Positions 30,573-37,483 of a DNA stretch of 39,347 nucleotides are shown piece after piece. This DNA comes from Gemmatimonadota bacterium (lineage in GTDB: Bacteria > Gemmatimonadota > Gemmatimonadetes > Gemmatimonadales > GWC2-71-9): positions 1 through 39,347 of the forward strand of contig QHUU01000102.1 of the NCBI GenBank assembly GCA_003222155.1, in the 5' to 3' direction. The notes below the pieces were generated by a model. It worked only from the letters and a program-made list of their open reading frames with translations, was not told where the DNA came from and searched no databases. Within the stretch, counting starts at the first letter, position 1; every line of letters starts with the position of its first letter. Made by a program: the position numbers and the translations under genes.

Positions 30573-31466
30573 CTAAGCGCGAGACTCGAGGAGCAAGTCC
30601 CGGAACGCTGCCGCTGCAGGCCCAAGCGGCGTCCCCGCGCGCCGCACAATCAGAAGATCGCGCGTCCAGCGCGGGCCGGCCAGCCGCGCGGCCACGATCC
30701 GTCGATCCCGTGCCAAGACCGCGTGATGCGACACCAGCGCCACCCCGAGTCCCGCGGCGACTGCCTCGCGAATCGCCTCGGTGCTCCCGAGCTCCATAGC
30801 CGGCGTGAGCGTCACCCCCAGCCGCGCGAGATAGCGTTCCGCCACGCCGCGGGTGCTCGAACCTTCCTCGCGAGCGATGTAGGACTCGCCCGCGATCGCG
30901 CGCGCGGTCACGGCCCGGCGTCGCGCGAACGCGTGGCCGCGCGGGACGATGAGCACCAGCTCGTCCTTCACCCAGGGTTCCGCAGCGAGCCCGGGCACGA
31001 GTGGTGCTTCGCCGATCACTCCCAGCTCCAGTTGACCCACCGTCACCGAGCGCTCGATCTCCCGGGTATCGCTGATCTCGAGTCTCAGGGTGATCCCGGG
31101 ATAGGCCGCATGGAACCGCCCGAGCGCGGCCGGCAGGAGGTAGGTGCCGGGAGTGGTGCTGGCGCCGATCGTGAGGGAGCCCGCTCGAAGCCCACGCACC
31201 TCGCCCGCCGCTTGCTCGGCGGTGCGCAGCAACGCGAGGGCCTGGCGCGCGTATGGCTCGACCACGCGCGCCGCCGCAGTCGGCCGTGCGCGCCGTCCGT
31301 GACGCTCGACGAGTCGGACGCCAAAGTGCGCTTCCAGTTCACGCAGATGCTCGGAGACGGCGGGCTGGCTGATGTGGCAGGCCTGGGCGGCGCGGCCCAC
31401 CCCGCCGTGGTCCAAGACGGCGAGGAACAGCTCGAGGCGGTGCACAGTGAGGCCGGGCTTGATCAT
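30573..31466 (-). CDS. LysR-family transcriptional regulator
   Basis: 297 residues from ATG 31466 (MIKPGLTVHRLELFLAVLD). N-terminal winged helix-turn-helix: GGVGRAAQACHISQPAVSEHLRELEAHFGVRLVER; C-terminal periplasmic-binding-like effector domain: GASTTPGTYLLPAALGRFHAAYPGI, LELGVIGEAPLVPGL, AGLGVALVSHHAVL. The CbbR/CysB/YeiE-like subgroup often controls sulfur or carbon genes. It is divergent from the cupin-methyltransferase-rhodanese operon and probably controls it. An ATAGG-6 bases-CCTAT dyad (31465-31480) overlaps its start, a good candidate autoregulatory operator. A longer frame to 31538 runs into this control region and was rejected. Confidence 0.92.
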   Translation of the reverse strand: MIKPGLTVHRLELFLAVLDHGGVGRAAQACHISQPAVSEHLRELEAHFGVRLVERHGRRARPTAAARVVEPYARQALALLRTAEQAAGEVRGLRAGSLTIGASTTPGTYLLPAALGRFHAAYPGITLRLEISDTREIERSVTVGQLELGVIGEAPLVPGLAAEPWVKDELVLIVPRGHAFARRRAVTARAIAGESYIAREEGSSTRGVAERYLARLGVTLTPAMELGSTEAIREAVAAGLGVALVSHHAVLARDRRIVAARLAGPRWTRDLLIVRRAGTPLGPAAAAFRDLLLESRA

Positions 31467-31480
31467 AGGATAAACCCTAT
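31465..31480. promoter_or_regulatory. Candidate LysR operator dyad
   Basis: ATAGGATAAACCCTAT, an inverted repeat ATAGG-N6-CCTAT covering the regulator start codon. A further half-site (CCTAT) lies at 31507-31511, next to a TTGACC that could be the -35 box of the rightward operon. LysR proteins typically bind such dyads in the divergent region; which one is used cannot be told. Confidence 0.45.
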
Positions 31481-31576
31481 CGCACAGATCAATAACTCGT
31501 ATTTGACCTATGGTGCAACCCGTGCCAGCTTGGGGCAACCCCTCGTGTCGGGCGCCCAGCGCCCAAGGAGTTCCTC

Positions 31577-32071
31577 ATGAGACACCACGTGATGCTCACC
31601 GTCGCGGTCGTATGCGCTGTCGCGTTCGCCTCGCGGGCAGGCGCGCAGGCGGCCGCGACTCCGGCGGCCGGTCCCATCGTCTTCCATGCGTCGGGCATCA
31701 GCTGGGCCGACGGCCCGCCATCCCTGCCCCGCGGAGCCCAGTTCGCGCTGCTCGAAGGCAACCCGGCCGAGGCCGTCCCGCTCACCTTGCGCCTCAAGTT
31801 ACCGCCAAACTACCGGATACCGCCGCACTGGCACGCCGTTCTCGAACACGTGACCGTGCTCTCCGGGACGCTGAACGTCGGCATGGGCGAGCAGCCCACG
31901 TATTCGGGCGGCACGGCGCTTTCCGCCGGCAGTTACGCCGTGATGCCGCAGAAGATGGTGCACTACGCCTGGACCGGAAGCGACGGCGTCGTCTTCCAGC
32001 TCCACAGCGTCGGGCCCTGGAGCATCACCTACGTGAATCCGAAGGACGACCCGCGCCAGGCGCGTCCATGA
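31577..32071 (+). CDS. Secreted cupin-domain protein
   Basis: 164 residues with a Sec signal peptide (cleaved near Ala-Gly-Ala-Gln). One cupin fold: LPPNYRIPPHWHAVLEHVTVLSGTLNVGMGE carries the metal-binding His-x-His and Glu/His pattern, and AGSYAVMPQKMVHYAWTGSDG the last His. Family members are small metal-dependent sensors or enzymes; function here unknown. The strong ribosome site AAGGAG precedes the ATG. It overlaps the methyltransferase start (ATGA). Confidence 0.88.
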   Translation: MRHHVMLTVAVVCAVAFASRAGAQAAATPAAGPIVFHASGISWADGPPSLPRGAQFALLEGNPAEAVPLTLRLKLPPNYRIPPHWHAVLEHVTVLSGTLNVGMGEQPTYSGGTALSAGSYAVMPQKMVHYAWTGSDGVVFQLHSVGPWSITYVNPKDDPRQARP

Positions 32072-32868
32072 CCGACGTCGCATTGCTTCACGCGGACGAG
32101 CAGGCCCCGCTCGAGGGAGTGATCAAGGGTGAGGTCCTGCGGATGTATCAGGAAGTGGCCGAGCACCCCGAAGGGGAGTTCCACTTCTACCACGGGCGTC
32201 AAGCAGCCGAGATGTTCGGCTATGAGCCCGAGTGGCTCGATCGCGCGCCGCCCGGCGCCGTGGCGTCGTTCGCAGGCGTAGGGAACCCACACCTGCGCAG
32301 CCGCCTCCAAGCCGGGGAGGTGGTGCTGGACCTGGGCAGCGGAGCCGGTCTCGACAGTATCATCGCCGGGTGGCAGGTGGGGTCGAAGGGCCGGGTGATC
32401 GGCGTCGATCTGAACCCGACGATGTGTCGCAAGGCGGAGGCGCATGCCGCCGCTTCCGGCGTGCGGATGGCGTGCCACGAGGGACGGATGGAGGACATTC
32501 CGCTGCCCAATGCGAGCGTGGACGTGGTGATCTCGAACGGCGTCATCAACCTCTCCTTTCGCAAGCGCACCGTGATCCGAGAGCTGTTCCGCGTCCTCAA
32601 GCCCGGAGGCCGGCTCTCGATCACCGACATCGTGAGTGCGAAGCAGCTGTCGCAATCCGTCGTCAACGATCCCAAGCTCTGGGCCAGCTGAATCGGCGGC
32701 GCTCTCCCGGAGGGAGAGGTGTTCACACTGCTCGAGGACGCGGGGTTCAAGCGCGTGCGCTCGGGCGTAGTCCCGGGCTTTGCATTCCGGAAGGAATCGA
32801 CCCGAGACGCCGCCGAGGCCTATGGCGTAAAGGCGGTGCTGTTCACGGCGCAGAAGCCCGCGACCTAG
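32068..32868 (+). CDS. ArsM-like SAM methyltransferase with in-frame UGA at a conserved Cys position (candidate selenoprotein)
   Basis: 266 residues if UGA (32689-32691) is read through, 207 if not. SAM-binding motif LDLGSGAGLDS at 87-97, then VIGVDLNPTMCRKAEAHA, ISNGVINLSFRKRTVIRELFRVLKPGGRLSITDIV. The family continues after this with LWxxC(L/I)GGAL, whose Cys binds trivalent arsenic in ArsM. Here the frame reads LWAS-stop-IGGALPEGEVFTLLEDAGF and continues openly for 58 more codons to TAG, with normal family C-terminal sequence. So only the Cys is replaced by UGA. A hairpin lies 17 bases after UGA (see SECIS entry). Alternatives: a nonsense mutation or sequencing error (TGC to TGA). The ATG overlaps the cupin stop. 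It probably methylates As, Se or a sulfur compound. Confidence 0.75.
32692..32718 (+). promoter_or_regulatory. SECIS-like hairpin after the UGA
   Basis: CTCTCCC (32702-32708), loop GGA (32709-32711), GGGAGAG (32712-32718): a perfect 7-bp stem. The loop begins 17 bases after the UGA and starts with two G, which agrees with the bacterial SECIS consensus as I recall it (loop about 16-37 bases away, a G among the first two loop positions). It is within coding sequence, as in bacteria. Confidence 0.55.
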
Positions 32869-32881
32869 GCATGCTTTCCCG

Positions 32882-33988
32882 ATGACTGCACCGACCATCT
32901 CCACCGAGCGCCTGCGGGAGCTGCTGGAGCGCGGGACGCCGGTCACGGTCCTCGATGTGCGCCCCGCCGTCGAGCGCGCGGAGTGGTCGATTCCCGGCAG
33001 CGTGCACGCCGATGCGTACGACGCGCTGCGGCGCGGCGACTCGACCGCCCTCGCGGACTTCCACCCCACGAATGGCGACCGCGTCGTGACGGTGTGCGCC
33101 GCGGGGAAGACAAGCAAGCTGGCTGCCGAGCGCTTGCGCGCGCGCGGCCTGGACGCCGTGTCGCTCGAGGGCGGGATGCGCGCCTGGAGCCTGGCCTGGA
33201 ACACCGCCGAGGTTCCGTGCCCCGGAAGCACCGCGCGGATCGTGCAGCTGCGCCGCACCGGGAAGGGCTGCCTCTCCTATCTCATCGGCTCAAACGGCGA
33301 CGCCGCCGTGGTCGATGCCTCGCTCGAGCCCCGGATCTACCATCGGGTGGCCGAGGAGCACGGCTGGCGTATCCGCACGGTCCTCGAAACGCACGTGCAC
33401 GCCGACCACTTGTCCCGCGCCCGGGCTCTGGCAGGCGACACCGGGGCGAGGCTCTGCCTTCCGACGACGGATCGTGTCTCCTTCGAGTACGCCCCGCTGA
33501 AGGACGGCGACATCGTGCGCGTGAGATCCGCTGGCCTGCGGGCGTTGCACACGCCTGGCCATACCCCGGAGAGTGTCTGCTATCTGTTGGACGAGCATGC
33601 CCTGTTCACTGGTGACACGCTGTTCCTGGCGGCCGTCGGCCGCCCGGACCTCGAGGCGTCAGCGGAGCAAGCGCGTCACCGGGCTCGCGCGCTCCATCGG
33701 TCTTTGCAGCGCCTGGTCGCATTGCCTCCTGACACGCTCGTCCTGCCGGCTCACACGAGCGAGCCCGTGGTATTCGACGGCCGCCCGATCAGCGCGACGC
33801 TCGGGGAAGTCCAGGAGCGGACGTCGCTGCTGCGCGAAACCGAGGAAGCGTTCGTGAGCCAGATCCTCACCCGGCTCCCGCCAACACCGCCGAACCATCA
33901 CCGCATCGTCGCCCTCAACGAAGCCGGCAGCTTGCCTGATGACCCCACGGAGCTCGAGGCAGGGGCCAATCGCTGCGCCGTCGCCTGA
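32882..33988 (+). CDS. Rhodanese - metallo-beta-lactamase fusion protein
   Basis: 368 residues. The N-terminal rhodanese domain (about 1-110) has TVLDVRPAVERAEWSIPGSVHA and the active Cys loop VCAAGKTSKLA. The C-terminal metallo-beta-lactamase domain has the zinc or iron motif ETHVHADHLS, then HTPGHTPES, FTGDTLF and PAHT, as in persulfide dioxygenases/glyoxalase II-like enzymes. A persulfide or thiosulfate metabolism role is likely, in the cytoplasm (no signal). It begins 13 bases after the methyltransferase, in the same operon, and its 3' end overlaps the MFS gene by about 50 bases. Confidence 0.9.
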   Translation: MTAPTISTERLRELLERGTPVTVLDVRPAVERAEWSIPGSVHADAYDALRRGDSTALADFHPTNGDRVVTVCAAGKTSKLAAERLRARGLDAVSLEGGMRAWSLAWNTAEVPCPGSTARIVQLRRTGKGCLSYLIGSNGDAAVVDASLEPRIYHRVAEEHGWRIRTVLETHVHADHLSRARALAGDTGARLCLPTTDRVSFEYAPLKDGDIVRVRSAGLRALHTPGHTPESVCYLLDEHALFTGDTLFLAAVGRPDLEASAEQARHRARALHRSLQRLVALPPDTLVLPAHTSEPVVFDGRPISATLGEVQERTSLLRETEEAFVSQILTRLPPTPPNHHRIVALNEAGSLPDDPTELEAGANRCAVA

Positions 33989-35252
33989 GGGGCCGTCTCC
34001 CATCCGACTCGGCTTCGGCGCCAACTGGCGTCAGTTCACGCTGCTCGTCGTCGTCAATGCCTTCGTCGGAGCGATGGTGGGGCTCGAGCGCACCGTCGTC
34101 CCGCTCATCGCCCAGGCGGACTTCGGGCTCGTCTCGAAGACCGTCGTCCTTTCCTTCCTTGTCAGCTTCGGCATCGTCAAAGCGCTCGCCAACCTGTTTG
34201 CCGGGCACCTCGCCGACCGGATCGGCCGCAAGCCGCTCCTCGTCGCAGGCTGGCTCGCGGGGCTCCCGGTGCCGCTGCTCATCATCTGGGCGCCGAGCTG
34301 GGGCTGGATCGTGTTCGCCAACGTCCTGCTCGGTGTCAACCAGGGCTTGTGCTGGTCCACGACCGTGATCATGAAGATCGATCTCGTGGGGCCGGCGCGG
34401 CGCGGCCTGGCGATGGGGCTCAACGAGTTCGCGGGCTACGTCGCCGTGTCGCTGTCGGCGCTGCTCACCGGCTACCTCGCCGCCGCACACGGCCTGCGGC
34501 CGGCGCCCTTCTATCCCGGCATCGCATTCGCCGTCCTGGGCCTTGCCGTTTCGGTCTTCGCCGTACGAGAGACCCGCGGCCACGCACGGGCTGAGTCACG
34601 TCAGCTCGGCGCCGATTTTTCCCGCCTCGGCTTCGGCGGCGTCTTCCTGCTCACGACCTGGCGGGACCGCGCGCTGTTCGCGGTGAGCCAGGCGGGCATG
34701 GTCAACAACCTGAACGACGGGATGGTGTGGGGACTCATCCCCGTGTTTCTCGCCGCGCGCGGTGTCACGCTTGACCGCATCGGCGTGGTGACCGCGACCT
34801 ACCCCCTGGTGTGGGGAATGGGCCAGCTCGCTACCGGAGCGCTGAGCGACCGCTGGGGACGGAAGTGGATGATCGCGAGTGGGATGTGGGTGCAGGCGGC
34901 GGGCATTGCGACCTTCGTCATCGGCCACTCCTTGAGGCCGTGGTTGGCCGGCGCCATACTCTTGGGGATCGGGACTGCGCTGGTCTACCCTACTCTGCTC
35001 GCCGCCGTGTCAGACGTCGCGCACCCCGACTGGCGGGCGAGCGCCGTGGGAGTGTACCGTCTCTGGCGCGACTCTGGCTACGCCATAGGCGCGATCGCCG
35101 CGGGACTCCTGGCGGACGCGTTCACCATGCCCTTCGCGATCGCCGCGATCGCCGCGCTCACCTTGGTCTCGGGAGTGGTCGTAGCCGGCGTCATGTACGA
35201 AACCTTGCCCGACGGATCCGCGCGTTGGCGTGTCGTCCCGACCGACACCTAG
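33939..35252 (+). CDS. MFS transporter
   Basis: 437 residues with about 12 transmembrane helices. The loop 2-3 signature GHLADRIGRKPLL and the mid-protein repeat ALSDRWGRKWM are typical for MFS. The substrate is not readable; cluster context suggests a product or substrate of the methyltransferase. The start ATG overlaps the rhodanese gene by 50 bases, giving a 25-residue tail before the first helix; no later good start exists before the first helix. Its stop overlaps that of the convergent lipoprotein by 3 bases. Confidence 0.88.
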   Translation: MTPRSSRQGPIAAPSPEGPSPIRLGFGANWRQFTLLVVVNAFVGAMVGLERTVVPLIAQADFGLVSKTVVLSFLVSFGIVKALANLFAGHLADRIGRKPLLVAGWLAGLPVPLLIIWAPSWGWIVFANVLLGVNQGLCWSTTVIMKIDLVGPARRGLAMGLNEFAGYVAVSLSALLTGYLAAAHGLRPAPFYPGIAFAVLGLAVSVFAVRETRGHARAESRQLGADFSRLGFGGVFLLTTWRDRALFAVSQAGMVNNLNDGMVWGLIPVFLAARGVTLDRIGVVTATYPLVWGMGQLATGALSDRWGRKWMIASGMWVQAAGIATFVIGHSLRPWLAGAILLGIGTALVYPTLLAAVSDVAHPDWRASAVGVYRLWRDSGYAIGAIAAGLLADAFTMPFAIAAIAALTLVSGVVVAGVMYETLPDGSARWRVVPTDT

Positions 35253-36917: not shown

Positions 36918-37301
36918 ATGGTATCGTCCATGAAGCTCGCGTTGCTGTTCGCGGCCGGACTCGGCGGCGCCGCCGCCCTTTGCCCATTCTGCGGCGGCGG
37001 AATTCAGACCGCCGGCGCGCAGCCTGCGCCGGCCGCCGTGCAGGCTCCGGACACGGCGACGGTTCGGCTTCACATCTCCAAAATGACGTGCGGTAGTTGC
37101 CCCGCAACCGCACGGCTCGCCTTGAAGCGGCTTCCGGGCGTGTACAGTGCCGCTGTTAACGACAGCCTCGGCGTCGTCCGCTACGACCCGCGGCAGGTCA
37201 GCCCGGCGCAGATTGCCGCGCACCTCACTCGACTCACCGGGTTCGGGGCCACTGTCTTGCCGGACTCGAGCACAGCACCCGGGAGCCCCGGACCCGAATG
37301 A
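36918..37301 (+). CDS. merP: MerP-like periplasmic mercury-binding protein
   Basis: 127 residues, ATG after AGGAGG. A signal peptide or N-terminal anchor with an unusual CPFC motif (Cys22, Cys25), a 20-residue Ala/Pro linker, and a heavy-metal-associated domain with MTCGSC (Cys58, Cys61), the mercury-binding pair of MerP. Delivers Hg(II) to MerT. The signal region is longer than in classical MerP, and the extra Cys pair may add a second binding site. Its stop overlaps the next ATG (ATGA). Confidence 0.85.
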   Translation: MVSSMKLALLFAAGLGGAAALCPFCGGGIQTAGAQPAPAAVQAPDTATVRLHISKMTCGSCPATARLALKRLPGVYSAAVNDSLGVVRYDPRQVSPAQIAAHLTRLTGFGATVLPDSSTAPGSPGPE

Positions 37302-37483
37302 TGGTGCTCACCGCCACGATCACCTGCCCGCACTGCGGCTTCGCCAAGGTCGAGACGATGCCTACGACTGCCTGTGTGCACTTCTATGAGTGCACCGGCT
37401 GCGGTCACCTGCTACGCCCACACCCGGGTGACTGCTGTGTATTCTGCTCGTTCGGGTCCGAGAAGTGCCCACCGAAGCAGTAG
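37298..37483 (+). CDS. GDCCVxC-domain small protein (family with selenoprotein members)
   Basis: 61 residues with 9 Cys: CPHC (10,13), C26, CTGC (32,35), GDCCVFC (46,47,50) and C57. The [16 protein letters not shown] end defines the family that NCBI names GDCCVxC domain-containing (seleno)protein, usually encoded next to mer genes; some members have Sec in place of a Cys. All positions here are Cys. Metal binding is very likely. Last gene of the mer cluster; its last 72 bases overlap the convergent ATPase antisense. Confidence 0.9.

Follow-up and report, generated by a model that had tools for sequence, protein, structure and literature searches.

A gene on a Gemmatimonadota contig encodes an ArsM-like methyltransferase in which an in-frame UGA, codon 208, is almost certainly decoded as selenocysteine (Sec), judging from the gene, its orthologues and the genome that carries it. 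The window analysed here is the whole 39,347-nucleotide stretch of contig QHUU01000102.1. The explanation that we favour, and consider likely to hold as a whole, is that of a genuine selenoprotein belonging to a branch of the ArsM superfamily with valine and glycine at two of the three arsenite-ligand positions (the V/G branch), which would act on a soft substrate held by one ligand. Translation of the frame, from the ATG at 32068 to the TAG at 32866-32868, contained a sole in-frame stop, the TGA of codon 208, within NDPKLWAS-U-IGGALPEG. An earlier note, made from the DNA letters alone, had described a UGA with the frame intact on both sides and 58 codons on its 3' side; the translation bore this out, with 58 sense codons between the UGA and the TAG. 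Standard gene callers will cut the methyltransferase short at residue 207. Nothing resembling a promoter turned up near the gene, and the Rfam matches in the gene region were sub-threshold (RT-13, 25 bits; mir-143, 14 bits) and were taken for chance. A PADLOC match to mad2 was set aside, as it covers a methyltransferase domain only.

Table 1. Features of the methyltransferase locus (positions in the window)
Feature	Position	Strand	Remarks
LysR-type regulator, divergent	30573..31538	-	recurs beside V/G-branch genes
Cupin-domain protein, directly upstream	31577..32071	+	ATGA overlap with methyltransferase start
ArsM-like methyltransferase CDS, predicted to contain Sec	32068..32868	+	266 residues, ATG to TAG, UGA read as Sec208
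V71 codon (AGVGNP)	32278..32280	+	canonical ArsM Cys72, GCGNP
G158 codon (SNGV)	32539..32541	+	canonical ArsM Cys174, SNCV
UGA codon, predicted to be read as Sec208	32689..32691	+	aligned with CmArsM Cys224
Bacterial SECIS hairpin, within CDS	32702..32718	+	stem CUCUCCC/GGGAGAG (7 bp), loop GGA
Rhodanese + metallo-beta-lactamase-fold protein, directly downstream	32882..33988	+	recurs beside V/G-branch genes
MFS transporter	33939..35252	+	recurs beside V/G-branch genes, 51-65% identity across phyla

The source genome (G000; 3.45 Mb, 95% complete) contains the complete Sec machinery. Profile searches detected selA at 554 bits, selB at 317 bits (351 bits with the rest of its frame) and selD at 396 bits; tRNA-Sec scored 80.9 bits, above the gathering score of 47, and ARAGORN reported a tRNA-SeC with the anticodon tca (UCA). 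All of selA, selB, selC and selD, which the earlier note had proposed to look for, are thus present. The selD gene itself (locus L149, G000:C93:86883-87815) has its own in-frame TGA, in HGAGUACKL, a known site of Sec in SelD proteins; because of this UGA, SelD looks like a second selenoprotein of the genome. Reassignment of UGA to another amino acid under an alternative code would equally put a UGA inside a conserved frame. This possibility is scarcely credible and is refuted by the use of TGA as an ordinary stop in genes of the window (cupin, rhodanese-metallo-beta-lactamase (MBL), SusD, aceB and aroG); moreover, the UCA-anticodon tRNA that was found is tRNA-Sec, and a conserved SECIS follows the codon.

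The 7-bp stem with a GGA loop, placed by the earlier note at the right distance from the UGA, stood up to closer analysis. The UGA and the loop are 17 nt apart, and the hairpin lies within the limits published for the bSECIS model of an element 3' of the UGA (PMC13188914). In these GC-rich genes, 11.6% of arbitrary in-frame codons precede a hairpin that fits bSECIS, and because of this control rate we rejected hairpin stability alone as evidence; the 81-nt fold around the hairpin was no better than its shuffles (z 0.92). The element is more than a chance structure because it is conserved. In a set of 42 distinct sequences drawn from several phyla, 99.0% of the pairs were kept, compared with 89.9% in shuffles, and two-sided changes in the stem numbered 30 as against 8.8. 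The double changes are confined to two pairs of the stem. A C-G stem pair has become G-C in a mainly acidobacterial and proteobacterial group; the closing pair has changed from C-G to U-A (once A-U), with a Pro/Leu change (CCG/CUG) paired with a silent GAG/GAA change. The covariation count leaves out L089 and L119, which have the Sec codon and no hairpin at the usual place, and L107, which has a different hairpin. Weak stems occur in L025/L054 (-5.7 kcal/mol) and L035/L063 (-5.8 kcal/mol). Synonymous conservation in the gene peaks at codons 212-218, where the mean excess identity is 0.43, compared with a mean of 0.03 (sd 0.11) for single codons elsewhere. The hairpin was absent from all six Cys homologues examined. 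It does not differ in kind from known bSECIS elements, and in this gene it is nearly invariant across phyla.

About 40 close orthologues were found in 395 Gemmatimonadota genomes, nearly all with one in-frame TGA. Thirty of them, 70-100% identical, were extracted for comparison, and every one (30/30) has the UGA at the same codon. The ratio pN/pS was 0.28 after the UGA (0.29 past the hairpin) versus 0.24 before it, and the part 3' of the UGA therefore behaves as translated sequence under purifying selection. These data bear on the alternative in which translation really ends at the UGA, or the codon stems from a sequencing error or from a mutation in a pseudogene, leaving a 207-residue product or none. 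Translation table 11 does end the frame at this codon, and the surrounding 81-nt fold is not unusual for its composition; yet the same UGA occurs in 30 orthologues from separate genomes, purifying selection goes on past it, and a covarying SECIS is accompanied by the complete Sec machinery. We regard this alternative as very improbable, and its error and pseudogene forms as refuted by the conservation of the UGA and the frame. The machinery, the invariant UGA, the selection and the covarying hairpin together bear out the Sec assignment that the earlier note had made.

The distribution of selA agrees with this assignment. It is present in 40 of the 41 Gemmatimonadota genomes with the UGA form, as against 282 of 395 overall (Fisher p 1.3e-5). 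A scan of GTDB genomes for relatives found Cys or Sec at position 208, as the earlier note had suggested checking, and the Cys homologues belong to genomes mostly without selA: selA was above the cut-off in 24/29 Sec-bearing and 1/10 Cys-bearing genomes (Fisher p 8e-5). Of the other Sec-bearing genomes, 3/29 have no real selA match (G417, G334 and G420) and 2/29 have fragments only; draft MAGs make up most of these genomes that lack a clear selA, and G420 (L053) is a chromosome-level MAG.

An AlphaFold2 model of the methyltransferase (pLDDT 88.6) gave ArsM and human AS3MT as its best PDB matches, and the sequence matches Pfam PF13847; the protein has the SAM-dependent Rossmann fold of the ArsM type. 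It shares this SAM-binding fold and the LWxx[C/U]IGGAL motif with ArsM/AS3MT (NF008823, PRK11873; 4fr0, 5evj, 6cx6, 8xt7). The chain here is shorter, however, and lacks the set of three As(III)-binding cysteines: in the alignment with PDB sequences, Cys72, Cys174 and Cys224 of CmArsM correspond to V71, G158 and U208. The earlier note had the UGA replacing the Cys of LWxxC(L/I)GGAL, and this holds, residue 208 being aligned with the As(III) ligand Cys224. Its further proposal, that Sec serves as the metalloid ligand of an ArsM, stood in part. Position 208 is that of an As(III) ligand; against the proposal, the other two ligand cysteines are lost, the score of 196.6 bits lies below the NF008823 cut-off of 263, and a canonical ArsM is encoded separately in the genome. 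Valine and glycine occupy the Cys72 and Cys174 positions throughout the close clade.

Biochemistry of CmArsM gives these substitutions weight. The C72A mutant lost activity on As(III) and kept it on MMA(III), C174A and C224A were inactive on iAs and MMA, and DMA(III) was bound by one cysteine in that work (PMC3877260). Because of these mutant data and the V, G and U found here, we do not expect the protein to methylate arsenite in the way that ArsM does, and with the other two As(III)-binding cysteines gone the enzyme probably does something else. Two further invariant cysteines of the close clade, C120 and C136, could make a different thiol site there; they are missing from most of the V/G branch, and for that reason we rejected them as general replacement ligands.

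That the enzyme is an ordinary arsenite methyltransferase, with Sec for one of three ligands and inorganic As(III) as its substrate, is nevertheless a reading with something to commend it. The fold is the same, the protein and the genome's canonical ArsM are ~43% identical over the shared core, a Sec-containing ArsM is listed as a known selenoprotein (PMC13188914), and Sec might hold arsenite tightly enough with glutathione or solvent as the other ligands. Set against this are the V and G fixed across the close clade, the inactivity of CmArsM C174A (PMC3877260), the sub-cut-off score, the canonical enzyme encoded elsewhere in the genome, and the neighbourhoods described below, among whose recurrent genes we found no ars genes. 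We judge this reading, and arsenite as the substrate, to be improbable.

The comparison of relatives divides the superfamily in two, C/C/C proteins and the V/G branch (71 being V, sometimes T or M), in which residue 208, Sec or Cys, is the only chalcogen of the three positions. The V/G branch spans many phyla. A tree parts C/C/C from V/G proteins at 99/94 and, inside the V/G branch, calls for several switches between Sec and Cys. In the source genome, the canonical ArsM (L154, G000:C93:28011-28790) has all three cysteines, in the motifs GCGNP, SNCV and GCIAGAL, and scored 343.1 bits on NF008823; C/C/C relatives with printed scores also passed that model, at 288-318 bits. No NCBIfam model claims the methyltransferase at its cut-off. 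On ArsM_AhpD_UU (NF041537), ArsM_DUF2284_UU (NF041536) and MTase_UXPK_star (NF047649) it reached 205, 185 and 180 bits against cut-offs of 510, 575 and 460, and it has neither an added domain nor a tail with another Sec, ending at a TAG after residue 266. A search of 58 genomes of another phylum for the fused NF041537 family yielded no true member, and the profiles were therefore probed by residue changes. Replacing V71 or G158 by Cys in silico gave 5-6.5 bits more on NF008823 and NF040538 and 2-3.4 bits less on NF041537, NF041536 and NF047649. The curated arsenite methyltransferase profiles thus prefer C71 and C158, and the profiles of the other three V71 and G158; judged indirectly in this way, the fused and double selenoproteins of these three families also appear to belong to the V/G branch.

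We consider it very likely that the branch with V71/G158 and Sec or Cys at 208 is distinct from arsenite methyltransferase, residue 208 being the sole chalcogen retained across it. A stronger form of this view is plausible and, on balance, favoured: the V/G branch would be a separate methyltransferase family that acts on neither arsenite nor methylarsenite, uses a single selenolate for binding or as a nucleophile, and works in a module with the LysR, rhodanese-MBL and MFS proteins. If true, a non-arsenite family would be more novel than a stand-alone Sec variant. ArsM surveys have admitted only proteins with three or more of four cysteines (PMC5552862), and under such a rule the V/G branch would have dropped out. 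Genes named 'arsenite methyltransferase' by similarity may, by the same token, not methylate arsenite. One V/G sub-branch in Gemmatimonadota (L132, L143, L144, L145 and L146) has Cys in the motif LWAECIVGA; selA is present in one of the four genomes tested, and Cys is kept there.

Neighbouring genes give some indication of function. Window-like MFS, LysR and rhodanese-MBL genes lie beside 10, 9 and 8 V/G loci, respectively, in several phyla, and beside 0/15 C/C/C loci. The LysR regulator of the window scored 211 bits on NF040786 (selenium-metabolism LysR), its best match, below the cut-off of 250; six LysR neighbours of other V/G genes gave 182-216 bits, again as the best match and below the cut-off, so that all LysR neighbours tested, from several phyla, match this model best. 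The MFS transporter reached no NCBIfam cut-off. This recurrent set suggests a possible role in chalcogen handling with export. About a quarter of the V/G loci have one of these neighbours, many loci being short, and clustering of the neighbourhoods revealed no strictly conserved operon. Some relatives have a regulator of the ArsR type nearby that weakly resembles BigR and TsoR. Two Cys members on haloarchaeal plasmids (L156 and L158) adjoin OsmC-family genes; a carboxymuconolactone decarboxylase (CMD) family gene is close to one of them, and DsbA/redoxin genes are close to the other. A canonical haloarchaeal arsM lies between arsR and arsB. The neighbourhoods, loose as they are, speak more for chemistry on thiols or chalcogens than for an ars operon.

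Such contexts are among the arguments for a different chemistry, in which the enzyme would methylate a thiol, selenide or sulfide by way of a selenenylsulfide or Se-methyl intermediate at Sec208. The rhodanese-MBL neighbours and the BigR- and TsoR-like regulators of some relatives would suit thiol/selenol or sulfane-sulfur substrates, as would the OsmC, CMD, DsbA and redoxin genes near the haloarchaeal Cys members, and AhpD or DUF2284 is the fusion partner in related double selenoproteins. The neighbourhoods are not strictly conserved, however, and no known family with such chemistry was matched; we regard this mechanism as somewhat unlikely. In the preferred explanation, with single-ligand binding, the hairpin directly behind the UGA would cause codon 208 to be read as selenocysteine, Sec208 would face the SAM methyl group as Cys224 does in ArsM, and it would bind the soft substrate by a single selenolate bond and position it to receive the methyl group. 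Our tentative candidate is a compound that has one exchangeable ligand, for example dimethylarsenite or some other organometalloid; a thiol/selenol-type acceptor seems rather doubtful. Either fits better than arsenite, and a substrate of some other kind is unlikely.

Selenocysteine in an ArsM-like protein is already known as a kind. arsM has been named as a selenoprotein (PMC2398784), and Table 1 of PMC13188914, on bacterial selenoproteins, contains an 'arsenite methyltransferase, UxxG', citing Fomenko 2007. As listed in that table, this protein (WP_011987699.1, Fomenko et al. 2007) has the same Sec UxxG and belongs to the ArsM superfamily, the comparison being one with the listing. The NF041537, NF041536 and NF047649 families likewise share the Sec UxxG and the V71/G158 preference, but they carry two or three Sec and are extended by another domain or a tail, whereas the protein described here has a single Sec in 266 residues. 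What is new is the stand-alone, single-Sec variant; our literature search found no paper on the stand-alone Gemmatimonadota Sec lineage. Bacterial selenoproteins whose function is known are mostly redox enzymes, and Sec in a methyltransferase active site is unusual. Because Sec is the sole chalcogen kept at a former three-Cys site and natural Cys versions exist, the family offers a clean test of Sec over Cys in substrate binding for methyl transfer.

Two minor observations remain. The GDCCVxC-family gene that the earlier note had seen in the window is present at 37301-37483, where it scores 84 bits on NF041374 (cut-off 40) and has only Cys; just upstream of it, at 36918-37301, is a MerP/UxxU-like metal-binding gene, also with Cys (CGSC). 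In another genome (G002), the UGA form of the methyltransferase occurs in two copies (C16:1174 and C83:25147).
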